Assembly (NCBI GenBank): GCA_002256995.1
Contig: NCGX01000020.1
Coordinates: forward strand, 1 to 64,000
DNA from: Hydrogenophilales bacterium 16-64-40
GTDB taxonomy: Bacteria > Pseudomonadota > Gammaproteobacteria > Burkholderiales > Thiobacillaceae
Direction of reading: 5' to 3'
DNA: 64,000 bases
Part shown: positions 16,239-26,421 of the stretch, in pieces
Layout of the letters: each line of letters starts with the position of its first letter
Numbering within the stretch: the stretch's first letter is position 1
Notes under the pieces: generated by a model
Told to the model about the DNA's origin: nothing
The model's input: only the letters and a program-made list of their open reading frames with translations
Database searches by the model: none
Translations under genes and position numbers: made by a program

Positions 16239-16610
16239 CGCGATTATTTCTCCTCATTCTTTAGATTGCCGGCGGCGCATCTTCCACTGTCCATGGATCC
16301 ACGGCGATCGTTCCCGCGGCCCGGGCCCCACCCTTGTGAGCGTAGAACAACGCGCGTCAGGCGATTGAAACCATTCCTTCCACAGATAAGTGACGAAGGG
16401 ACAGGGCAGGGTGATTTCCTACGGTGCGCGCCGTGCGGCGCGTGCGTCTGTGCGCTGACGCACCCGGCAAGGGTCGTGCCCATTGATTCTCGCAAATCAA
16501 GACTATCACTTTGGCCCAGATCCAATTGAAGCTAGCCAGGACCGGCGATCCACAAGACCGCTGCCGCAAAGCACAACGGCCTACGTTTGAAACGTAGGCC
16601 GTTGCTATGT
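16239..16610. other. Intergenic region with a 14-bp-stem hairpin
   Basis: No gene is supported. At 16574-16604 the arms CAACGGCCTACGTT and AACGTAGGCCGTTG pair perfectly around a 3-base loop. Read leftwards from the tRNA-Asn remnant at 16611, this is where a tRNA terminator would lie, but only a weak T stretch follows. The segment 16260-16570 shows nothing I recognise. Confidence 0.55.
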
Positions 16611-16656
16611 TTGGCTCCCCGACCTGGATTCGAACCAGGGACCTGCGAATGAACAG
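16611..16656 (-). repeat. Diverged tRNA-Asn 3'-end fragment (old attachment site)
   Basis: Matches the 46-base core shared by 17457-17502 and 26345-26390 at 42 of 46 positions. It covers the 3' half of tRNA-Asn including the CCA end but not the 5' half, so it is not a functional tRNA. It probably marks the left end of an earlier insertion into the same tRNA gene. Confidence 0.82.
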
Positions 16657-16671
16657 AGCGTCGAACGCCTG

Positions 16672-17259
16672 TCAGGCTGCGGCGAGGCTCTCCGTGCGCA
16701 TCCTGTCCAGCTTCTCGACGACCGCCTGATACAGATCCCCGTCGGCATCGGGGTTGCGGTCAGGATGGTGGGCGCTGCGGATCTTTTTCAGCGCAGGCAT
16801 ATCGTCGGGCAGGTCATGCACCTTGGTCACCCGGTCGCCGTTCTTGACCATCTCGCGCTGAACCTCGGCCTCTGCGCCTTCGCGTGTGTCGTGCAAGCGC
16901 CTGCTGCCAAGACGCCACCCATCCTGGGTCTTGCGCGGGGAATGACTTTTCTCGCCATCGAACCAGACCCATTTGCCGGTATCCGGATCCAGTTCAAAAC
17001 GTATGGTGGTGATGCCGTAGGTATAAACGGGCGGCTTGAGGTCCCTGGCGAACATCTTGAATGTGCCGACTGTGCCCACGTCGGCGAGGTAATACGCGCC
17101 AGCCTCATGCGGGCAGAATGCGCTGCTGGGCACGGGCTTGGGCGTTGGCTCAGGCTTGCTGTCGTTACGTGACGGCTCTGCCGTGGGGTCGTTACGTAAC
17201 GGATCCATTTCGGCCTTGCGGCTGGCGTGCAATGCTGCCCGGCGTTGTGCGTTGGTCAT
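16672..17259 (-). CDS. Unknown protein with C-terminal J-domain-like segment
   Basis: A 195-aa protein of unknown function trapped between two attachment-site copies. Residues 1-45 are charged and Pro-rich. The middle contains FELDPDTGKWVWFDGEKSH and a helical stretch. The C-terminus has [20 protein letters not shown], which resembles helix II, the HPD loop and the start of helix III of DnaJ, and is strikingly like the HHPDRNPDD of the real DnaJ in this window. The rest of a canonical J domain is missing. A good AAGGAG precedes the ATG at 17259. It is likely cargo of an older integrated element; the chaperone-recruiting role is inference. Confidence 0.7.
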   Translation of the reverse strand: MTNAQRRAALHASRKAEMDPLRNDPTAEPSRNDSKPEPTPKPVPSSAFCPHEAGAYYLADVGTVGTFKMFARDLKPPVYTYGITTIRFELDPDTGKWVWFDGEKSHSPRKTQDGWRLGSRRLHDTREGAEAEVQREMVKNGDRVTKVHDLPDDMPALKKIRSAHHPDRNPDADGDLYQAVVEKLDRMRTESLAAA

Positions 17260-17422
17260 TGGTGATGCTCCTTACTCAATATTGCTGGAAACCCGCCGGG
17301 ATCGCCCCTTGCTGAAGGGGTCAGGCCTGGATGAGGCTGTCCGAGCGTGCTTTCTTGTGGGACATGTCTGCTTGACCAAACTGTCACCCGAAAGCCGGCT
17401 TGGCTAGGGTTGGACAGAATTG

Positions 17423-17447
17423 AAAAAGCCCCGCATCGCTGCGAGGC
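17423..17447 (-). terminator. Rho-independent terminator left of attL
   Basis: On the minus strand GCCTCGCA, a GCGA loop and TGCGGGGC are followed by TTTTT. It lies 10 bases beyond the tRNA-Asn fragment at 17457, so it was probably the terminator of the tRNA gene before the present element inserted, or came in with the earlier element. Confidence 0.75.
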
Positions 17448-17456
17448 TCTTCGAAT

Positions 17457-17502
17457 TTGGCTCCCCGACCTGGGCTCGAACCAGGGACCTGCGGATTAAC
17501 AG
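17457..17502 (-). repeat. attL: 46-bp tRNA-Asn direct repeat
   Basis: Identical over 46 bases to 26345-26390, starting with the CCA end and T-arm of tRNA-Asn and stopping inside the anticodon loop (GTTAAT side). It diverges immediately beyond, which defines the crossover region. Confidence 0.92.
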
Positions 17503-17561
17503 GCCTACCGGGGCCTCTGCTGGCCGCATTTATACACCTTCAGGCGCGCAACTGGAAGCAC

Positions 17562-17587
17562 AAAAAAGCCCGGCGCGAAGGCCGGGC
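17562..17587 (-). terminator. Rho-independent terminator after the 215-aa gene
   Basis: On the minus strand GCCCGGC, a CTTCGC loop and GCCGGGC are followed by six T residues. It lies 37 bases past the stop codon of the 215-aa gene and ends transcription before attL. Confidence 0.85.
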
Positions 17588-17623
17588 GGTGTCGGGAGAT
17601 TCGGCGAGACGCAGGGTGCGGCG

Positions 17624-18271
17624 CTAGCGGTTGCGCATCCTGCGGAATGGGATCACATTGCCGCCGAGCCCTGCAGCCTCAGGAGCCGGAGTGTCTGGCA
17701 CTGGCAGCTCGTCCCCTATGCAGTCAGGGGTCCACTTCTTCCGCAATTCCGGGTCCATTCCAATCCCGCCAGCCTCGACCAGTTCGCGCAGCTCGTCGGA
17801 GATTTCGTAGAGCCTTCCGAGTGCGACATCATCGAACCTATATCCGCCCAAACGTCCAGCGTCGAGCAATCGCTCAACCCCTTCCATCGTTGCCACAACA
17901 TAACGGTGCACCCTGCCTCGATAGTCGCCCGCGGATTCAGGCCATGAGTCCACCACCAACTTTGCTTGCCTGGCATCTTCGATCCTGGCCCGCTGCGCTT
18001 CTTCTGCCGCTCGGTATGCTGCCGCCTCACCCTCGTTCCAATCTCTCCGAATGGAAAAGATGTATGTGGACTTTCGCTGGATTTTGATTGCTCGGCCTGC
18101 GGGATCGGTTCCGCGCTCGACTGTTTTTCGCGCACCAGGATCGCCCGGGAATGTCCCGTCCAAGGTGTAGCCGTGCTGGATCAACATTTCCCGAGTTCCC
18201 TCGATAATGCGGCCCCAGGCATAGTCTCTAATTTGAATTCCGCGCGCGCGGGTAGAATTGGCAGCAGCCAT
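17624..18271 (-). CDS. Unknown satellite cargo protein (215 aa)
   Basis: I do not recognise this protein. It is soluble, with a charged helical middle (EAAAYRAAEEAQRARIEDAR), a preceding beta-like segment (RAIKIQRKSTYIFSIRRDW) and a C-terminus ending in VIPFRRMRNR. A GGAGA lies before the ATG at 18271. It sits at the end of the element away from the integrase, separated from the capsid gene by a 400-base gap with a terminator, and has its own terminator, so it is an independent unit. In known satellites this position often holds antiphage or helper-interference cargo, so that is a reasonable but untested guess. Confidence 0.75.
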   Translation of the reverse strand: MAAANSTRARGIQIRDYAWGRIIEGTREMLIQHGYTLDGTFPGDPGARKTVERGTDPAGRAIKIQRKSTYIFSIRRDWNEGEAAAYRAAEEAQRARIEDARQAKLVVDSWPESAGDYRGRVHRYVVATMEGVERLLDAGRLGGYRFDDVALGRLYEISDELRELVEAGGIGMDPELRKKWTPDCIGDELPVPDTPAPEAAGLGGNVIPFRRMRNR

Positions 18272-18467
18272 GATGCAATCTCCAGATAGGTTGCTTTGTG
18301 GTCAGGCCCTGCATCGCGTTGACGCGCTTTGTGGGGCCGCTCATCCAACAGGGTGTCGGATGGCCGCATCCTACGCCCAGCCACCCACAAAAAGCAAACC
18401 CACCCGCCAGAATCGCCGTGGTGCGTTTTAATCCGGCTGGCCGATACCTTGGGCTCATGCCGCAATA

Positions 18468-18494
18468 GAAAACCCGCCACAAGGGCGGGTTTTC
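18468..18494. terminator. Bidirectional hairpin terminator after the capsid gene
   Basis: GAAAACCCGCC and GGCGGGTTTTC form a perfect 11-bp stem with a 5-base loop and a short T run on either strand. It is about 180 bases past the capsid stop, so it separates the capsid transcript from the 215-aa gene. The rest of 18272-18674 has no supported gene. Confidence 0.85.
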
Positions 18495-18591
18495 AAGGTG
18501 CGCTGCGTCACTGCTTTATGCTGAGCGAGCGTCGGGGGTGCACCATACCAAGCCTATCGGCCTGGCCCGTGTCCGGCCATCGTCTGAAATC

Positions 18592-18609
18592 TCAGGAGCA
18601 TGCTCCTGA
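18592..18609. promoter_or_regulatory. 18-bp perfect palindrome downstream of capsid gene
   Basis: TCAGGAGCATGCTCCTGA is a perfect two-fold palindrome 66 bases beyond the capsid stop codon and outside any supported gene. It could be a protein-binding site or an RNA cruciform; the sequence alone does not decide. Confidence 0.4.
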
Positions 18610-18674
18610 AGGAAACCCGCCGCCGCCGCTATGGCCGAACTGTCTCGCGTTGGCGGTTGACCCGGGCTATTCGT

Positions 18675-20492
18675 TTAAGTGGTGGCGTCGAGGATTGCCG
18701 CGAAGCTGGCCGCGCGCCGCACCGCAATGTCCACGTCCAGCAGGGCAATCACGCGAGTGCCGCCAGAGGTGCCCAAGCTGATCTTGTCGACCATCAGGTC
18801 CAGGCCGCCCCACTGGCCAATCATCAGATCCCGCCAGTTGCCGAAGATCATCGCGGACAGGTTGGTGCCTGTGCCCTTGGTAAGAGTGCTTGGCACATTG
18901 CTGCTGACGGCCGACTTGTAGCCGTTCATCCAGCCGAAGCCGTCAGCGTCGCGCGCCTCGTCGGACCAGATGAAGCCTGCGCCCGCATCGCCGGAAACCT
19001 TGGTGGTGCCCTTCAGTGCGCGGCGCACCTTGGCATTCGTGAGATGTGCCATTGCGCCCATATCCGCGCTTGCGTTGGCCAGCGCTTCCTCGAGCATCAA
19101 GACGTGCGCCCAGGTGACAGGGCCACCGTTCGCGCCGATTGCCACGGAGCCGATGCCGGAGGTGCTGAGGATGCCGGTCGGCTCGTTGTTGGCACCGGTG
19201 CCAGCAATGGCGGCGCGGTCCACTTCCACCGCCATGAGCGCGGCCAGGTCGGCGCGGATGATCGCCTCGATGTCGGGGGTAGCCTGCAGCAGCATGCGGC
19301 GGCTGAAGTCGGTGTACGCACCGACTGTCTTGGGCGTCAGGGGAACCTGACCGAAGGCCTGCTGGCTCTCGGTGGGCGCGCCCCCCTCGGCAAGCCAGGA
19401 AGCCGTAGCAGCGCCGGTTTGACTGGGAATGCTGAGATTACCCACCAGGCCGCCGAGAGTGGTAGCACCCAGGGTCAGGACGTGGCTGCGTGCGCGCAGC
19501 AGCTCAATAAAGCTGCTGGCGTCCAGCTCGTTGGCAACCAGGTAGCCGCCGGCGCCGGGCGTACCCGTAACCAGGTCGCGCTGGCCACGCTGGTGGCGCA
19601 GTACTTCATTCGGCACGAACAGGCCTTGCGGCTCCTTGCCGAGTTTTTCGGCGAGTGCGCGGCTGGCTTCCAGCTCGAACCCGGCCTCCCGGCGTGCGTA
19701 GTTGGGGTCCATCTGCGCCAGGATCGCCCGCTGGAACGAGAAGCGCTCAGCCTCGCGCTGGCTGAGTCCAATGTCAGGAGACTCTGCGGGGCGCAGCGTG
19801 CCATTGCTGCGAATGCGGGACATAGCAATCGAGCGGAAGGCGTCCAGGCTGGTGCCGTCTGCGATCGCGCGGTTTGCATCGTTCTGCAGATTGTGGGCGT
19901 GGCCGATGGCGGCGATTTCCTGCACGCGCTCGCGCTCTTCCAGCGCGCCCTGGTTGGATGAGCGGCGCTGTGAACGGCTCAGGGCGTCGTTTTCGGTGAT
20001 GGTGACGTCAGTCATGATTTTTCCTTTCGGGGAATGATTTCGATAAAAGCCAGCGTGATGGTCCGCAGGAACGGAGACAACCGAGCATTCATAGGGCTGC
20101 CATGCGAAGCGGACCGTGCGGCCGGTTTCGGTCAGGGGTTTGAGTAGCTGATAGCCGACGGAGAGGCTGCGGACAATGCCGGCCTTTACGTCTGCGAGTA
20201 TTTCGCGTGCTTGAGTGCTGGAACCGAATCGCGCCAGGCCTGTGAGCTTGCCGCCCACGATACGCACCTGCTCGATCACGCCGATATTGAGTTCGGTGTG
20301 ATTGTGCTGAACGAGCAGGGGCAACGGTGCGCGGCTCAGATCGACGTCGGCGGGGCGGTGGCTTAGAACTTCCAGATAGTCACCGCGCTCGACCGGCGTT
20401 TCGCTCGCCAGGGTACAAGGGATGATGTCGCTGCCGCTGTCGGCTTCGGCGGGCCGCAGTTCAATCTCGCGGGTGAAAAATTCGGTGGCCAT
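18675..20492 (-). CDS. HK97 prohead protease fused to HK97-fold major capsid protein
   Basis: A 605-aa fusion. Residues 1 to about 150 are an HK97 (U35) prohead protease with the histidine in LLVQHNHTELNIG (H63/H65) and the serine in VRSLSVGYQ (S111). From about 160 it is a major capsid protein: a helical, charged delta-like region to about 270, then the capsid fold beginning PGAGGYLVANELDASSF. The ATG at 20492 follows GGAGGG; the frame is open to 20888, but only this start matches a protease N-terminus. An internal ATG at 20015 (residue 160) has its own AAAGGA six bases upstream and lies exactly at the domain boundary, so free capsid may also be translated. No separate scaffold, portal or connector gene follows. 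Confidence 0.93.
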   Translation of the reverse strand: MATEFFTREIELRPAEADSGSDIIPCTLASETPVERGDYLEVLSHRPADVDLSRAPLPLLVQHNHTELNIGVIEQVRIVGGKLTGLARFGSSTQAREILADVKAGIVRSLSVGYQLLKPLTETGRTVRFAWQPYECSVVSVPADHHAGFYRNHSPKGKIMTDVTITENDALSRSQRRSSNQGALEERERVQEIAAIGHAHNLQNDANRAIADGTSLDAFRSIAMSRIRSNGTLRPAESPDIGLSQREAERFSFQRAILAQMDPNYARREAGFELEASRALAEKLGKEPQGLFVPNEVLRHQRGQRDLVTGTPGAGGYLVANELDASSFIELLRARSHVLTLGATTLGGLVGNLSIPSQTGAATASWLAEGGAPTESQQAFGQVPLTPKTVGAYTDFSRRMLLQATPDIEAIIRADLAALMAVEVDRAAIAGTGANNEPTGILSTSGIGSVAIGANGGPVTWAHVLMLEEALANASADMGAMAHLTNAKVRRALKGTTKVSGDAGAGFIWSDEARDADGFGWMNGYKSAVSSNVPSTLTKGTGTNLSAMIFGNWRDLMIGQWGGLDLMVDKISLGTSGGTRVIALLDVDIAVRRAASFAAILDATT

Positions 20493-20716
20493 GTTCGGCC
20501 CTCCATTCAGGCCAGGACGCGCAAACAAAAGGACGCGGCCAGGCAAACTAGAAAAACAGCTCCAGGGAGCTAGCTTCAGTCTGTCCAGACGCGCCCTTGT
20601 GAGCGTGCTCCCACCGCCAGGGCCTCGGAACAGCACCAGCAAGCGCGGAGCATTGGACGGGTGTCGTGTTACCGGACCGCTAGGGTTCGACGTGTTCACA
20701 GTGTCGCCGGACAAAC

Positions 20717-20743
20717 GCGAAATTTGTAGGCAAGAAATTTCGC
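20717..20743. promoter_or_regulatory. 27-bp inverted repeat, putative operator upstream of capsid gene
   Basis: Arms GCGAAATT and AATTTCGC flank a centre containing TAGGCAA. A second copy at 25093-25119 matches 23 of 27 bases with identical arms. This copy lies 225 bases upstream of the protease-capsid start and touches the stop codon of the 97-aa gene. It probably binds a satellite or helper regulator. On the minus strand a TACAAA hexamer lies inside it and could be a -10 element. The region 20493-20716 shows no gene. Confidence 0.72.
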
Positions 20744-21036
20744 TAGTGCAGCTCGCCAGGTGTGGGAACGATCTCGAAGCGCAGGCCTTGTTCGCGGGCG
20801 ATCCGCAGCTGCTCGGCCAACACGCCGGCCGATGCGTTGAGCATGCCTTGCAACTGGATCCGCACTTCCGCCAGCGTTTCGTCCTCATCGTTCAACAGGT
20901 TGAGTGCTGCAATACAGCGCCGCAGATTCTCGGTGCGCAGGTGCTCGAATAGGACCAGGTCAGCATAAGATGCGCCGGCCAGGGTGATGTTTTGCTCCGG
21001 GTTGGAAACGCGGACTCCGAGTGATTCGATGCTCAT
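20743..21036 (-). CDS. Unknown satellite protein (97 aa)
   Basis: Not recognised. A small acidic helical protein (DETLAEVRIQLQGMLNASAG) with no membrane segment. A strong AAGGAG precedes the ATG at 21036. It lies between the small terminase and capsid genes, where connector or scaffold proteins would be encoded, but no family motif supports such a role. Its last codon abuts the operator-like inverted repeat. Confidence 0.72.
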   Translation of the reverse strand: MSIESLGVRVSNPEQNITLAGASYADLVLFEHLRTENLRRCIAALNLLNDEDETLAEVRIQLQGMLNASAGVLAEQLRIAREQGLRFEIVPTPGELH

Positions 21037-21077
21037 GTGATGCTCCTTTGGTTGGGTGTGGTGGTGTGGTCTTTGCT

Positions 21078-21545
21078 CTAGTCGTCGTCGGCCTCGACCT
21101 CGTGCGCGTTCGGCCAGCCTGAAAGCATGGTCAGAAATGCCTCGAACTCAGCCCGCAGCATCGCCTCGCGCCCGTCGAGGTCGTGGGGCAACTCGCGCGC
21201 CAGGCGATGCTGCGTTTCCAGCCACTTCTCGCGGGCGGTCACGAACGCTGCCTTTAGCTTCGGCTCAAGCAGCGCGGCAGGAATGAGCTGCCCGCGCCTC
21301 TCGGCGTTGTCCATCTCCACCGCCTGCGCCTTGGCAAGCGCCAGGCGGTTGCTGGGCGTCTCGGGTTGCACCTTGCTCAGCTCACGCTCGACCAGCCAGC
21401 GGACACACTCATCAGATTCATATTCGCTGGGTGCCCCGTTCCCGCCACGGCGTGCCACGGGCAAGCCCTGGTCCTGCCAGTTGGCGATGGTCTGGTGCGA
21501 CACCCCAAACAAGTCTGCAATGCTCTGGATACCAATAATCTTCAT
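21078..21545 (-). CDS. Phage terminase small subunit, Nu1-like
   Basis: A 155-aa DNA-packaging recognition subunit. The N-terminal winged helix-turn-helix is visible as QSIADLFGVSHQTIANWQDQ (about 6-25), followed by LPVARRGGNG and a helical oligomerisation region (RLALAKAQAVEMDNAERRGQ). This matches lambda Nu1-type TerS, which binds cos/pac DNA. No large terminase is encoded in the element, so it would have to work with a helper phage's TerL. The ATG at 21545 follows GGGAG by seven bases; a TTG one codon upstream is less likely. Confidence 0.88.
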   Translation of the reverse strand: MKIIGIQSIADLFGVSHQTIANWQDQGLPVARRGGNGAPSEYESDECVRWLVERELSKVQPETPSNRLALAKAQAVEMDNAERRGQLIPAALLEPKLKAAFVTAREKWLETQHRLARELPHDLDGREAMLRAEFEAFLTMLSGWPNAHEVEADDD

Positions 21546-21724
21546 CAATCAACTCCCTTGTAAGTTACAGAACTAGCGAAAACCTGCGATCGTTCCGGCC
21601 CGTGCTGGGATGGGCTGGGAAGGACCCGTTAAACCTGAGGCCCCGCCTCGCACGACATGCCTGCTCGACATCGATGCGCTTCATCACTTGGTGAACCCAT
21701 GCACCCCCAGCCACACACAGGGCA

Positions 21725-21927
21725 GGAATAAAGGGAATCAAGGTGCGAAAGGTCATCACGCCTTTTTGTGCTACTCGTGCCCGCCCTACCTTTATTCCCT
21801 TCTTTCCCTTTATTCCCTCCGGTGTGTGGTCTGAGGCTTGAAAGCCTTTATTCACAAGGAAAGAAAGAAAAGACTTATTAAAACCTTCTAGGGAATCAGC
21901 TAATAAAGGTGCGAAAGTCCCCATCAC
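21725..21927. other. AT-rich repeat cluster, candidate origin of replication
   Basis: Directly downstream of the replication gene, this stretch is far more AT-rich than its surroundings. It holds two direct copies of AAGGTGCGAAAG with a nearby CATCAC (21740-21759 and 21906-21927). It also holds repeated TTTATTCCC units (21789-21798, 21808-21817) and the inverse GGAATAAAGGGAA (21725-21737). A 120-aa frame (21565-21924) runs through it and its ATG overlaps the primase stop, but its odd composition and lack of any family make a coding role doubtful. Iteron-like repeats beside a primase gene suggest an origin; this is inference. Confidence 0.5.
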
Positions 21928-24440
21928 TCAGCCCCCTTCATGGCAAGCGGGTTGACCAGGTAATAGATCGGTGGGCGGCCGCCTGTTGCCGTTCCCTTGT
22001 GCGGGCCGGTGATGAGGTTGCGGGTCTTGAGTGTTTCGAGTGCGACGACCAGGCGGTCAATCTTGTCGAAGCGCGTGTGGTGCGCGCGGTGCAGGTCGGA
22101 ACGCAGGAACTCGGGTTCGCCCTTGCGCTCAATCCAGCGCCAGCACACCTTGGCGTCGTCGGTGGCAGGGTCGGCCCCGATCAGATCGAACACGGCTTGC
22201 GCGTGGCGTATGAGCCGCAGGCATAAGCCGACAGCGCGCTTCATGGTGTCCTCGCTGATTGCCTCCGCAGGCTTGCCGTGCCCCGCAACATGGAACAGCC
22301 CAGCCACCCGCAGCGCGCCGCCTGGCAACTTCGCGCACCAGTCGCGCATGGATTCCAGCGGCCCGCCTTCTGCCTGCTCGTTTTCGATCTTCTGGGCAAA
22401 CTTCACCCACAGATCGCGCGCCACGTCCGACAGCAACAAGACGTGTTCGTCGTCCTCGCCTTCTGCCGCATCGGTGCGCGGCCCAAGCTCCAGCAATCGC
22501 AGCACCTCGCCGCGGTAGCGTGCCTCCAGGTCGGTTGAGATGGTGACGCGCCGCCCCATATCACGCCTGCCGATACGGCTGGCAGGCAACCCGAAGAAGA
22601 AACGCGCGAAGGTGCCCGAGCTGCGGAACTTGCGCTTCGCGGCTGGGGCCATGTCCTGCAGCAGCCCTGGTTGCATCCCGAGCCCGAAGGTCAACGCCGG
22701 CCGGTCGATTACTGCCGTGCGGCTGCCACGATCCACCCGCACAGCCGAGCCGCTGTAGGATTGCAGCGCAACGTCAACGACAGATTCGCCGCCCGAATAC
22801 AGGCCCGCCAGCACGGCAAAAATGCCGCCTTCGTCGCTCATCACGGCCATGCGGCCATCATGCTCGACCAGCATCCCCTGCAATCGCTCAGGCGTAACGT
22901 CGCCCGTAAAGAATCGCGGCGGCCGCAATTCGTCCGGCGTCTGTTCAGCCAGGTCGGTGATTTCACGCACCAGTTCGCCCCGCCGCACCGCGCTATCCTC
23001 TTTCGCCGCATCGGCCTGCAACTTTTCCGCACGGCGCTGGCTGATTTTGCGCAGGGTGTCCCGCTCGACAATTTCGGTGCGCATCTGGTCTGCCAGCTTC
23101 GCTTCCTTCAGCAGCACCGGCTTGAGTAGCCGCTGGATAAGCGCGCTCTTGCGCTCGCCCGAATCGGCCAGGATCACCGTCCAAATGCACACCGGCTCGC
23201 TGTAGTCATCGCCAAACGGTGAAACCTTGAACTTGCGCTGCAAGGCCAACCCAAAAACCGACAACGTGAACAGCACGGCCATCGTCGGTGGCGTTTGCAA
23301 CGCCTCGGATAGTGCGGCGGCGTACTCACCAAACACACCAGGCAGCAGGTCGGTCGGAAGTTCAGGGGTTTCAATTCGGTTGAATGGAAGCGGCTTATCC
23401 CAATTCCCGCCGTCTGCTGCCGCCCCAGAATCGCCCAGGATCGACGATCTCGCTGCCGGTGGGGCTTGGGTATGGACCGGGCGCGGTGCACGCCAGCCGG
23501 CCCCCATTGCCAGCTTGAACAGCGTTGCGCCAGTGATGCCAGCACCCGGCTTAAACGACTTCCACCGCTGCCGCAACTCGGCTTCGCCCGGATACTTGTC
23601 AGACTTCATTGACCAGGTGTTCCACACCGAGAACCCGGCTTCGCCAAGCTCGGCTTGGATCGCCATCCCGGCCTTTACCCAGTCATCATTCCCGCAGTCC
23701 GGGCTGACATAGGCCAGCGCGCTTTCAACCTTGGCACAACCTTCCTGCGCGGGTGTCGGGGCGGTCGCCGGCTTGTTGTCCACCGCGCGCTTCCTGCCGC
23801 CGTCCACCGTCGCCTTGAGTCGCTTCAGGACCTTCTCCGGCAGCGGGTTAACCGTGCCTGGGGTAGCGGGGTAGCGGTGCCCGGTGAAAGTGAAATACTG
23901 CCGCCCGCAAAAAACCTCAACGCCGATTTCGTTCGACTTGAACGTGTCGGTCGTACCGCTGCAGATAATGTGAACGCCCTTGCCGCTGGGGCTGAATTCG
24001 GTGTAGCTGCCGCAGGCCGCAATGATGGCGCCGCCGCGCTCGCACATTTCGCCTGTATCGGGATCGATCATCGCATCGAGGTCGATCCCCACCAGACCAT
24101 CACCTGGTAGCAGCGCCATGCCGACGCCGGAATATTTGCCCTTGGCCATTGCCGCTCGCGCGGTGGCCAGGTCAACCAGAGCGGCGCGGTCTGACTCAGC
24201 CCCTTGCTCGCCGGTCCGGCGCTTGCCGTTGCAGTAGTACGGGATTTTCCTTGGCTTCTTGTCGCCAGGCTTGGATTCAAACCGCCACACCAGCCACTGT
24301 TGCCGGCTGGCCAGGTCGCCAGGGATCGCGGAGAAGTCTTGCGCGACCTCGGATGATTGCCTATTATTTGACCTGCTGTTTTTTAAAGCCGCCTCCGTGC
24401 TCCCCAGCTCACAGGCGGCTTTTTCTTTGTCCTGGTTCAT
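21924..24440 (-). CDS. Satellite replication protein: prim-pol, PriCT-2 and DUF3987 helicase-like domains
   Basis: An 838-aa multidomain protein. Residues 40-210 resemble a primase-polymerase domain with metal ligands D120 and D122 in GIDLDAM and a later SGKGVHI strand. About 238-316 matches the primase C-terminal 2 helical domain. About 360-780 is DUF3987, with a Walker A-like ADSGERKS at 425-432. It probably starts replication of the excised element. The frame is open to 24572, but the ATG at 24440 follows AAGGGA and overlaps the previous stop by ATGA. It differs from the P4 alpha protein, which uses a different helicase domain. Confidence 0.9.
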   Translation of the reverse strand: MNQDKEKAACELGSTEAALKNSRSNNRQSSEVAQDFSAIPGDLASRQQWLVWRFESKPGDKKPRKIPYYCNGKRRTGEQGAESDRAALVDLATARAAMAKGKYSGVGMALLPGDGLVGIDLDAMIDPDTGEMCERGGAIIAACGSYTEFSPSGKGVHIICSGTTDTFKSNEIGVEVFCGRQYFTFTGHRYPATPGTVNPLPEKVLKRLKATVDGGRKRAVDNKPATAPTPAQEGCAKVESALAYVSPDCGNDDWVKAGMAIQAELGEAGFSVWNTWSMKSDKYPGEAELRQRWKSFKPGAGITGATLFKLAMGAGWRAPRPVHTQAPPAARSSILGDSGAAADGGNWDKPLPFNRIETPELPTDLLPGVFGEYAAALSEALQTPPTMAVLFTLSVFGLALQRKFKVSPFGDDYSEPVCIWTVILADSGERKSALIQRLLKPVLLKEAKLADQMRTEIVERDTLRKISQRRAEKLQADAAKEDSAVRRGELVREITDLAEQTPDELRPPRFFTGDVTPERLQGMLVEHDGRMAVMSDEGGIFAVLAGLYSGGESVVDVALQSYSGSAVRVDRGSRTAVIDRPALTFGLGMQPGLLQDMAPAAKRKFRSSGTFARFFFGLPASRIGRRDMGRRVTISTDLEARYRGEVLRLLELGPRTDAAEGEDDEHVLLLSDVARDLWVKFAQKIENEQAEGGPLESMRDWCAKLPGGALRVAGLFHVAGHGKPAEAISEDTMKRAVGLCLRLIRHAQAVFDLIGADPATDDAKVCWRWIERKGEPEFLRSDLHRAHHTRFDKIDRLVVALETLKTRNLITGPHKGTATGGRPPIYYLVNPLAMKGAE

Positions 24441-24802
24441 GCGTTCCCTTTCGCTGGGGTTGCCAGCAGCAGGCCGGCAGAAGCAGATGCACGCGCCTCC
24501 AGAACCAGGTGCGCCGGCATCCGGCCGCCATCGCGCCGGATTGCAGCAGCGCAGCGCCCACAAAACAGCCACGCAGTTTGGAACAGCGGCCCGTCAGCAC
24601 GCTCGGCAAGATTGAGTCGCCCGACGGCGCGCTGCTTGCGTGCAACGGTGAACGGTTTGCCGCAGCCGGCGCAGAACTTGCCATGCCCGGATGCGTTCAG
24701 GTCGTCCCCGACTGCCTGGGTAACCGCGCCCTGCAGCGGCAACAGCATCAGCAGCGGGTCGGCGTGCGGGTCATCCTTAACCTCGAATTGGGATTGGCTC
24801 AT
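24437..24802 (-). CDS. Small zinc-ribbon-like protein
   Basis: A 121-aa protein with CAGCGKPF and a later FCGRC, a CxxC-x(n)-CxxC pattern that would bind zinc and may contact DNA or RNA. It overlaps the 76-aa gene upstream and the replication gene downstream by 4 bases each (ATGA), so the three are one translationally coupled operon. I cannot assign it to a family. Confidence 0.72.
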   Translation of the reverse strand: MSQSQFEVKDDPHADPLLMLLPLQGAVTQAVGDDLNASGHGKFCAGCGKPFTVARKQRAVGRLNLAERADGPLFQTAWLFCGRCAAAIRRDGGRMPAHLVLEARASASAGLLLATPAKGNA

Positions 24803-25029
24803 GCTGCCGCCTTCCGGCCGATGGCCACGGCCGCCAGATTGAAGCGCGATGGATTGAAACGCATACGACCAGCAACAATGATCAGCGCGCCTTGCTCGAC
24901 CAAGGCGACGCGATTTTGCCGCACGTACCAGCGAACAGAATCTACAGTGGGGAAGGTGGTCGCCACGCCGGCTTGCAGCGTGGCGAGGTCAACGAACTCG
25001 TCTAGCGAGGGAATTTCGGTTTCAGTCAT
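24799..25029 (-). CDS. Small putative DNA-binding protein
   Basis: A 76-aa protein whose residues 27-60 (SVRWYVRQNRVALVEQGALI followed by VAGRMRFNPSRF) look like the end of a small winged-helix or AlpA/excisionase-like fold. An AAAGGAG lies before its ATG. It is the first gene after the operator-like repeat at 25093, so it may be the regulator or excisionase of the element. The assignment rests on pattern and position only. Confidence 0.65.
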   Translation of the reverse strand: MTETEIPSLDEFVDLATLQAGVATTFPTVDSVRWYVRQNRVALVEQGALIIVAGRMRFNPSRFNLAAVAIGRKAAA

Positions 25030-25092
25030 GGTGGATCTCCTTTAGTCACAAACCCTTGCCGGGGTGCTGTGGGTGACTGTAGGAGTCTTGAT

Positions 25093-25119
25093 GCGAAATT
25101 ATTAGGCAAAGAATTTCGC
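25093..25119. promoter_or_regulatory. 27-bp inverted repeat, putative operator upstream of replication operon
   Basis: Arms GCGAAATT (25093-25100) and AATTTCGC (25112-25119) with central TAGGCAA, nearly identical to 20717-20743. It is 64 bases upstream of the first gene of the replication operon. A TAATAA hexamer inside it on the minus strand may be a -10 element, so binding would block or recruit polymerase. The remaining 25120-25281 shows no gene; it contains short inverted TTCAGGC/GCCTGAA arms. Confidence 0.72.
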
Positions 25120-25281
25120 AGCGTGGCTTACTGAGCAATCACCCATCCAAGCGGCTATGTAAGCGCTTGGCGCGGTGATTATCTGCGGCTATTGGTGTGA
25201 GGCTTCCTGAACCCGAGAACAGGTCAATGACGTTTTTTCAGGCTCGAAACCGCCTGAACCGGTGAAGGTATCGGGCCGCGA

Positions 25282-26265
25282 CTACACGCGATTTGCAAAA
25301 ATCCGCGTCATGAGTTGACGCCGGCTGTCGGTGTTCAGATGCGCATAGCGTTGCACCATGCGCAGTTGACGATGACCCAGGGTGTCCGCGATCTCCAACA
25401 ATGACGCGCCGCTTTGCGCCATGTAAGAGGCGGTGCAATGCCGACAGTCGTGGAAGCGGAAATTCTTGATTGCCGCCGCTTCAACAGCCTCGTTGAAAAC
25501 CTTGGCCGTCGAGTAGGGCTGCGACGGCCGCAGGCGGCTGCGAAAAACCAGCGCCTGGCTGGTGACAGCATCCTTCGGTGCGAAGCGTTCCAGCTCGGCG
25601 ATCACCTGGGGCAACAGCACCAGCACCCGCCGGTCGCCATTCTTGGTGTCGTGCAGGATCGCCTCGGCGCGCACCAGGTCCACGTCACACCAGCGCAGCC
25701 CGAGCAACTCGCCACGCCGGGCGCCGGTCGTGAGCGCCATCAGCACGAACACATACAGGCGCGGCCAGGGTGATTCGACGCACGCCACGAGCAAGCGGGT
25801 GCGCTCGTCGTCGGTCAGGTAGCGCACCCGGCCCCGTGTCTCGGTATTTTTCTCAACGTGGCGGGTTGGCGAATCGAAGCCGCGCGGGACCAGGCGCTGG
25901 CGCTTCGCCCAGGTGAACAGCGCGGCGAGCGCTACCTGGTAGCGGTTCAGCGTCGCCCCGCTGCGATGGCCGGCTTTTTTCCTGAAGATCGGATTGTCGT
26001 CGGCGTCGCGGCCGCTGTAGACGCGAGCGGGCTCGGTGGCGAGCGTGCGCATTGCGTCGTCGATGTCGTCGGGGGTGATTTCGGCCAGCACCTTGTCACC
26101 GAGCAGGCGGGACCAGGCGTTGATGCGATGGAAGCGCGTCCCATCACGGCCGCCAATGCCGCCAGCGTCTTTAGGGCGGGCGTAGGCGTCCAGATAGCTC
26201 TCGGCAATTTTCGAGAGGGTTTGGCCGGCTGCGGCAACAGCTTGGGCGTTTTGGGCTTCAATCAT
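25282..26265 (-). CDS. int: Tyrosine recombinase (satellite integrase)
   Basis: A 327-aa integrase with an N-terminal SAM-like core-binding domain (about 15-125). The catalytic residues are R183 (TTGARRGELLGL), K208, H272 and R275 (FHDCRHCTAS), H298 (LGHRQ) and nucleophile Y307 (RYAHL). All six are intact, so it should be active. It lies 80 bases from the intact tRNA-Asn on the same strand, the usual place for an integrase that recombines at that tRNA. AGGAG precedes the ATG at 26265. Confidence 0.95.
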   Translation of the reverse strand: MIEAQNAQAVAAAGQTLSKIAESYLDAYARPKDAGGIGGRDGTRFHRINAWSRLLGDKVLAEITPDDIDDAMRTLATEPARVYSGRDADDNPIFRKKAGHRSGATLNRYQVALAALFTWAKRQRLVPRGFDSPTRHVEKNTETRGRVRYLTDDERTRLLVACVESPWPRLYVFVLMALTTGARRGELLGLRWCDVDLVRAEAILHDTKNGDRRVLVLLPQVIAELERFAPKDAVTSQALVFRSRLRPSQPYSTAKVFNEAVEAAAIKNFRFHDCRHCTASYMAQSGASLLEIADTLGHRQLRMVQRYAHLNTDSRRQLMTRIFANRV

Positions 26266-26344
26266 GTCGGACTCCTAAGCGATTAGCCGATTTTGATCGG
26301 CGGTCTTAGCAGAGGCCCGACAAGGGCTTGAAACTAAAGGAAAC

Positions 26345-26390
26345 TTGGCTCCCCGACCTGGGCTCGAACCAGGGACCTGCGGATTAACAG
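26345..26390 (-). repeat. attR: 46-bp tRNA-Asn direct repeat
   Basis: The 3' part of the intact tRNA-Asn gene, identical to 17457-17502. Excision by the adjacent integrase would leave one copy and regenerate tRNA-Asn. Confidence 0.92.
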
Positions 26391-26421
26391 TCCGTCGCTC
26401 TACCAACTGAGCTATCGGGGA
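26346..26421 (-). tRNA. tRNA-Asn (anticodon GTT)
   Basis: A complete 76-base cloverleaf with acceptor stem TCCCCGA/TCGGGGA, D arm GCTCAGTTGGTAGAGC, anticodon arm CGGACTGTTAATCCG (anticodon GTT), T arm CTGGTTCGAGCCCAG and an encoded CCA. It is the integration target of the element to its left; the insertion restored the full gene. Confidence 0.97.

Follow-up and report, generated by a model that had tools for sequence, protein, structure and literature searches.

Phage-inducible chromosomal islands (PICIs) of Gram-negative bacteria with capsid homologues, a lambda-like cos site or a small terminase (TerS) are already published. Passages of PMC6092414 describe TerS in some of them and a lambda-like cos in EcCICFT073, origins in which two iteron sets flank an AT-rich stretch, and an attachment site that is unused by the prophages of the host. 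Capsid-forming PICIs (cf-PICIs) carry, according to passages of PMC10690885 and PMC13230959, a portal, connectors, the large terminase (TerL) and HNH, whereas the Ccm protein of the satellite SaPIbov5 is presented in parts of PMC5052747 and PMC8569155 as a capsid homologue located in pentamers that forms no capsids by itself. Here an 8,888-bp element integrated in a tRNA-Asn gene is analysed, which lies in a window of 64,000 nucleotides (the whole stretch studied, from contig NCGX01000020.1 of Hydrogenophilales bacterium 16-64-40). Judged from its sequence and from that of its relatives, it is a real, intact-looking and recurring phage satellite. The reading favoured here, with slightly more confidence than doubt, is that of a betaproteobacterial satellite of the PICI type that would make its own self-maturing shell, be packaged from a cos site by the lambda-type TerL of a helper phage, and borrow the portal and tail of that helper.

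The element seems best classed as PICI-like. As in EcCICFT073 and PmCI172 (described in passages of PMC6092414 and PMC10111431 as having unidirectional genes, integrase, primase, an origin with two iteron sets, a capsid homologue and, in some cases, TerS or, in EcCICFT073, cos), its genes are unidirectional and include an integrase and a primase, an iteron layout follows 3' of the primase, and TerS is accompanied by a cos-like site. It differs from them in that its capsid is fused to its protease, and the set in the passages of PMC6092414 is all from Gammaproteobacteria, whereas the elements considered here are mostly from Betaproteobacteria. With cf-PICIs the element shares an HK97-type capsid protein of its own, a head protease and TerS, but portal, connectors, TerL and HNH are all absent from its genes in Pfam and PHROG searches. 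With SaPIbov5, a cos-packaged satellite dependent on helper head genes (parts of PMC5052747 and PMC8569155), it shares an HK97-type capsid homologue, although the parts of PMC8569155 on Ccm identify no protease. The Vibrio satellite PISP TG93 is likewise small and has a capsid protein, a head protease and a small terminase, portal and TerL being unmentioned in the passages of PMC13230959 on it; unlike the present element, it is a plasmid without a detected integrase and its capsid belongs to PF03864. A preliminary description of the window had proposed a reduced variant of a cf-PICI. This descent was considered and is not retained, as nothing derives the element from a cf-PICI, and a capsid homologue unaccompanied by portal or TerL, together with TerS or a lambda-like cos and an iteron origin, is already on record for ordinary Gram-negative PICIs and for SaPIbov5 Ccm. 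A tentative placement, for which the case is nearly balanced, would be a lineage intermediate between PICIs of the Ccm type and cf-PICIs. Its self-maturing shell would be complete, with protease, delta domain and capsid joined in a single polypeptide, but would be nucleated on a portal that it does not encode and filled by an equally borrowed motor under the direction of its own TerS and cos. The literature searched, judged from titles, the beginnings of abstracts and passages, offered no description of betaproteobacterial elements of this sort; papers on cf-PICIs, tycheposons or marine elements may describe them. With these elements, the range of PICI-like satellites comes to include relatives of Thiobacillus as well as other Betaproteobacteria. 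The present one stands out in that it would supply a self-maturing shell and neither portal nor motor, while its cos and TerS indicate the group in which a helper may be sought.

The preliminary description had reported perfect 46-bp attachment (att) repeats at both ends, an integrase, a replication protein, TerS and a protease-capsid fusion, all on one strand with ATGA overlaps, and no TerL, portal or tail, and in these respects it was borne out. The repeats are identical over the 46 bp, within a 52-nt repeat of 96% identity; Pfam and PHROG matches confirm the four proteins (Table 1); and the minus strand holds all assigned element genes, with ATGA overlaps at 24799-24802 and 24437-24440 and a one-base TGATG overlap directly after the primase gene. 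No TerL, portal, connector, HNH or tail protein was found among the element genes with Pfam and PHROG, and neither TerL nor portal with profiles built from the proteins of five reference phages that have a fused capsid of the same kind (Arya, S-LBS1, RcRhea, Mica and Alexa). Since the primase and the capsid are the only open reading frames (ORFs) above 350 amino acids (aa) on the gene strand, there is no room for a full-size TerL or portal; an ORF of 453 aa (18600-19961) lies on the opposite strand, antisense to the capsid gene. The hallmark genes of P4-like satellites are Sid, Psu and Delta, and none of them appeared in the Pfam and PHROG matches of the element's 9 ORFs. The cos-like site, the likely iteron origin and a third att-like copy are features beyond the preliminary description.

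That description had also turned on whether homologous elements possess additional head and tail genes, in which case the present one would be a decayed prophage. Relatives (loci and genomes are designated here by L and G numbers) were gathered by a contig scan with two short patterns and are not a census, and the reference-phage profiles were run over the loci fetched to that point. Among 76 full-length fused capsids, 13 fell in the window's clade and 63 outside. A portal or TerL was present in none of the 11 clade rows whose upstream DNA exceeds 2.1 kb, which represent nine distinct loci (L031, L036=L056, L041=L060, L059, L061, L062, L064, L065 and L066; the L064 contig measures 5.6 kb); outside the clade, rows with as much upstream DNA showed a portal in 51/51 and TerL in 48/51, and the 10 rows without a visible portal all have 2.03 kb or less upstream. 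A tree of 61 rows (the 76 capsids minus 16 judged redundant by eye, plus the window) joined 9 satellite rows and three short-flanked ones (L030, L057, L064) in one clade with support 100/99, leaving all 42 phage rows and 7 other unassigned rows outside. Each clade member with enough flanking DNA is thus a satellite, and the outcome that would have spoken for a decayed prophage did not occur. Moreover, the satellite capsids are under purifying selection, with ratios of non-synonymous to synonymous rates (dN/dS) of 0.10-0.34 in 16 pairs, dS being near saturation in many of them.

Repeat-bounded islands were recognized in 8 of 23 related loci examined. Besides the window, fused-capsid satellites with att repeats found on both sides are only L036 (9.3 kb, with a 17-bp repeat at tRNA-Arg), L059 (9.5 kb) and L065 (8.9 kb); the other five islands have a capsid homologue devoid of protease (L042, 8.8 kb; L043, 9.2 kb; L050, 9.1 kb; L054, 8.6 kb; L055, 8.7 kb). 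Six islands sit at a tRNA gene (Arg, Pro, Thr or Asn), their repeats measuring 45-49 bp, and L050 has a 48-bp repeat with no tRNA called. Hosts of the fused kind include a Thiobacillus sp. (L056, the same place as L036), Burkholderiaceae (L059, L062), Rhodocyclaceae (L061) and Thauera sp. 28 (L065). The nine att-bounded elements, window included, span 8.6-9.5 kb, a clustering that would fit a head-size limit. The presence of similar elements in other bacteria suggests that the lineage is stable and the element no broken phage; hence, the relatives of small islands with an HK97 capsid and without portal or TerL should be checked before these are filed as broken prophages.

The fusion protein comprises 605 aa counted from the ATG at 20492, the complete ORF being of 737 aa with the extra sequence upstream. 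The match to phrog_617 spans the entire fusion, and two PHROG protease families match at 4e-11 and 2.5e-8. Other models stay below their cut-offs: Pfam S78 reaches 17.5 bits on the protease part (cut-off 21), and in NCBIfam the HK97 protease model gives 33 vs 59 bits and the fusion model 122 vs 525 bits. His63 and Ser111, which we take from the S78 family to be the catalytic residues, are conserved in all 61 rows of the tree, including 9/9 satellite and 42/42 phage rows. The window is 75% identical to satellite L036 both in protease plus delta region and in the capsid domain. Compared with the five prophages proposed below as helper candidates, the window is 36-39% identical in protease plus delta and 54-57% in the capsid domain. 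The delta region has 138-145 residues in satellites vs 167-175 in those candidates, the range over the whole of the 42 phage rows being 131-194; the protease part of the satellites is likewise shorter than that of the candidates. The clade was recovered from the capsid domain alone with a Shimodaira-Hasegawa-like approximate likelihood ratio (SH-aLRT) of 88 and a branch of 0.065, and from protease plus delta alone with 93 and 0.55. It is therefore the protease-delta half that sets the satellites apart most from phages, the shell domain staying phage-like. The half presumed to control assembly has diverged as if size control had been rebuilt and compatibility with the helper kept.

The packaging functions point towards candidate helpers. 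The cos-like site lies directly upstream of TerS, and lambda has GGGTCCTT and TTTTCGCTA too, with 40 bases between them once its ends are joined. The cos pattern, like the iteron pattern, was drawn up after the sequences had been seen, so that the chance figures of both are post hoc. Upstream of TerS or capsid in 19 satellite-type stretches, GGGTCCTT was exact in 12, present as a near variant (by judgement) in 5 and missing in 2 (L051, L054); four of the five prophages with related TerS hold it, the fifth being cut by the contig end. Written as a regular expression and run over loci L030 onward and the window, the pattern matched nearly always just 5' of TerS or of the capsid module, the strays being one in L150 and two stretches of the own genome. 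In the own genome a loose pattern gave 3 matches (the element's own site plus two that look unrelated) vs 2 for the reversed control, and therefore only tighter patterns are informative. A tighter one, from which the window's site is one base off, occurred at 3 places in 117 genomes of the family: ahead of TerS in two prophages, and in one satellite. Its reversed control gave 0.

Those five prophages (L046, L048, L071, L076, L096) have a GpA-type TerL and come from the same bacterial family as the window. The window's TerS is 64% identical to that of L096, 62% to L076, 61% to L048, 59% to L046 and 53% to L071, and its cos-like site is close to the cos of these prophages, which appear to be the best helper candidates. 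The TerS tree was too poorly resolved to reveal exchange with helpers. TerL searches of other genomes covered the GpA family in sets of 12 and 6 genomes, three being common to both. In G202, which carries L061, a prophage with a GpA TerL has a cos-like site about 5 kb before TerL; outside the first half, this site and that of the L061 satellite have little in common. The 4.9-kb contig of G034 with a GpA TerL has no GGGTCCTT word. In two loci TerS matches the window's protein only C-terminally (L039:1191-1697, residues 63-155; L061:9261-9776, residues 65-147), which suggests that they carry a different DNA-binding half. L051 has upstream of its capsid a weakly TerS-like gene (phrog_57 5e-7) that clusters with genes of L043 and L052, the L043 protein having no match when searched alone.

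According to the favoured reading, an infecting helper phage would induce excision and replication of the satellite, the fusion protein would assemble a small self-maturing shell upon the helper portal, and the satellite TerS would deliver the satellite cos to the GpA-type TerL of the helper, which would pack about 9 kb into the shell before helper tails finish the particle. Three points weigh against it. First, searches of the own genome for three families of TerL, two of portals and another PF05065 capsid gave no match, so a resident helper was discarded and the inducing phage is pictured as an infecting one. Second, the candidate helpers occur in other species. Third, the likeness of the capsid domain to theirs, together with the protease-less capsid homologues of sister elements, would permit co-assembly with helper protein. 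It may also be asked whether a satellite's shell could be built upon the portal of a phage with only 36-39% identity in protease-delta and 54-57% in the shell domain.

The co-assembly just mentioned has a sizeable, though minor, share of our credence: the element would be a capsid-resizing satellite of the SaPIbov5 Ccm kind, whose protein enters the helper's shell, for instance as pentamers, and forces it to be small. The phage-like capsid domain, the short delta and the Ccm precedent would allow such resizing, Ccm having a delta domain 44 residues shorter than that of its helper, and the sister elements without protease would suit it. However, the delta range of the phage rows as a whole includes the satellite lengths, the low identity in protease plus delta speaks against mixing with the candidate helpers' protein, and a protease with conserved residues in every satellite row would be needless for a subunit matured by the helper; the retained protease favours a fusion protein that forms the whole shell. 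It is quite unlikely that the capsid gene serves for interference only or is dispensable, with the DNA travelling as concatemers in full-size helper heads, as described for EcCICFT073. Passages of PMC10111431 do report that a capsid gene is common in Gram-negative PICIs (21/29) and not required for transfer, but the clustered sizes and the selection on protease plus capsid argue otherwise. Decay of a prophage, with loss of TerL, portal and tail, is very improbable and was rejected: the reference phages have the order TerS, TerL, 'gp3', portal, capsid (with two more genes in between in RcRhea), which the element resembles without its middle, but the same reduced gene set is met with in several hosts and at several tRNA sites, within one clade under purifying selection, and att repeats and reading frames are intact.

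Table 1. Features of the tRNA-Asn element and of the adjoining outer stretch (window coordinates)
Position	Strand	Feature	Evidence or remark
16608..17456		outer stretch, outside the element	third att-like copy and ORF f195
16672-17259	-	f195 ORF	also outside att in G015 (L042)
17457..17502		distal att copy	identical to 26345-26390 over 46 bp
17624..18271	-	c215, accessory protein at distal end, 215 aa	homologues within att in L042, L043
18675..20492	-	prohead protease-capsid fusion, 605 aa	PF05065 1.2e-37; phrog_617 1.3e-136
20743..21036	-	orf97, 97 aa, between TerS and capsid	9 homologues aligned with it
21078..21545	-	small terminase TerS, gpNu1-like, 155 aa	PF07471 (Phage_Nu1) 2e-13; phrog_57 4.8e-23
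21574..21627	-	lambda-like cos site GGGTCCTT-37-TTTTCGCTA	1 match in the 64-kb window, 0/100 shuffles (post hoc)
21700..21930	-	iterons in opposite orientations (CCTTTATT / AATAAAGG), likely origin	overlaps small ORF 21565-21924
21924..24440	-	primase-helicase, 838 aa	DUF3987 3.2e-89; PriCT_2 3.1e-18
24437..24802	-	zinc-ribbon-like protein, 121 aa	homologues in L031, L039, L041
24799..25029	-	reg76, small protein (76 aa), possible regulator	homologues in 3 other elements
25282..26265	-	tyrosine integrase, 327 aa	PF00589 1.6e-25
26345..26390		att copy, tRNA side	46 bp identical to 17457-17502; covers 3' part of tRNA-Asn
26346..26421	-	tRNA-Asn(gtt), integration target	ARAGORN

Between the primase gene and the cos-like site, CCTTTATT occurs in both orientations with a strength reached in 0/300 shuffles, and this region is likely the replication origin. 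In the equivalent test across elements, 12/16 passed, the stretches, that of the window included, having been picked by eye (at most 8/300 shuffles as strong) and L065, L042, L051 and L052 failed. The iteron words differ between element groups, the best word being palindromic in L059 and L066, and the AT content of the stretches is modest (41-58%). The existence of orf120 as a full 120-aa protein is doubtful; its later part consists of iterons and cos-like site, with conservation mainly at the start.

In six of the sister loci (L042, L043, L050, L051, L054 and L055) the match of the capsid homologue to phrog_617 is confined to the C-terminal part, which is that of the capsid, and the capsid of L052 seems to be protease-less likewise; similar satellite backbones thus come with two styles of capsid. 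A family of proteins of 113-142 aa adjoins the capsid in L042, L043 and L055, at the place of orf97 in other elements, and the orf97 profile gave zero matches in loci with TerL or portal. Some members carry a gene reminiscent of other phage parts: L062 has a gpZ-like neck or tail-completion protein (PF06763, phrog_27) with a homologue by clustering in L061, and L065 a minor-tail-like protein. The 8.6-kb tRNA-Asn island of G016 (L054:5265-13881, 48-bp repeats) encodes, next to its capsid homologue, a tape-measure-like protein of 668 aa, which is odd for a satellite. G039 seems to hold two such islands, because four of its contigs (L037-L040) break inside the capsid gene at about one point, as would two similar copies in an assembly. 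In a Nitrospinaceae contig (L091:9914-12131) a non-fused capsid is followed by a TerS-like gene, and the profiles found no TerL or portal within about 10 kb on either side.

Regarding the remaining genes, reg76 had no match in Pfam, PHROG or NCBIfam, and c215 none in these or in PADLOC, which also detected no defence genes among 10 proteins. The zinc-ribbon matches of the 121-aa protein are weak and all below the Pfam cut-offs. As to the regulator of AlpA type (or Stl) that marks PICIs, AlpA had no match in the window element; the sister L066 exceeds the AlpA cut-off and L041 falls just under it. Close homologues of the integrase adjoin tRNA-Asn in G015 (L042), G016 (L054) and G034 (L052).

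Beyond the distal att copy, the third att-like copy (16608-16659) has 85% identity. Here f195 was considered as cargo of the element and rejected, being outside att both in the window and at the tRNA-Asn of G015, where a further 18-bp att-like word lies behind its homologue. Given this shared outside gene and the extra att-like word, the outer stretch is possibly the remnant of an earlier insertion. The f195 product had no family match in Pfam, PHROG, NCBIfam or PADLOC; inspected by eye, its end holds an HPD motif as in J-domains.

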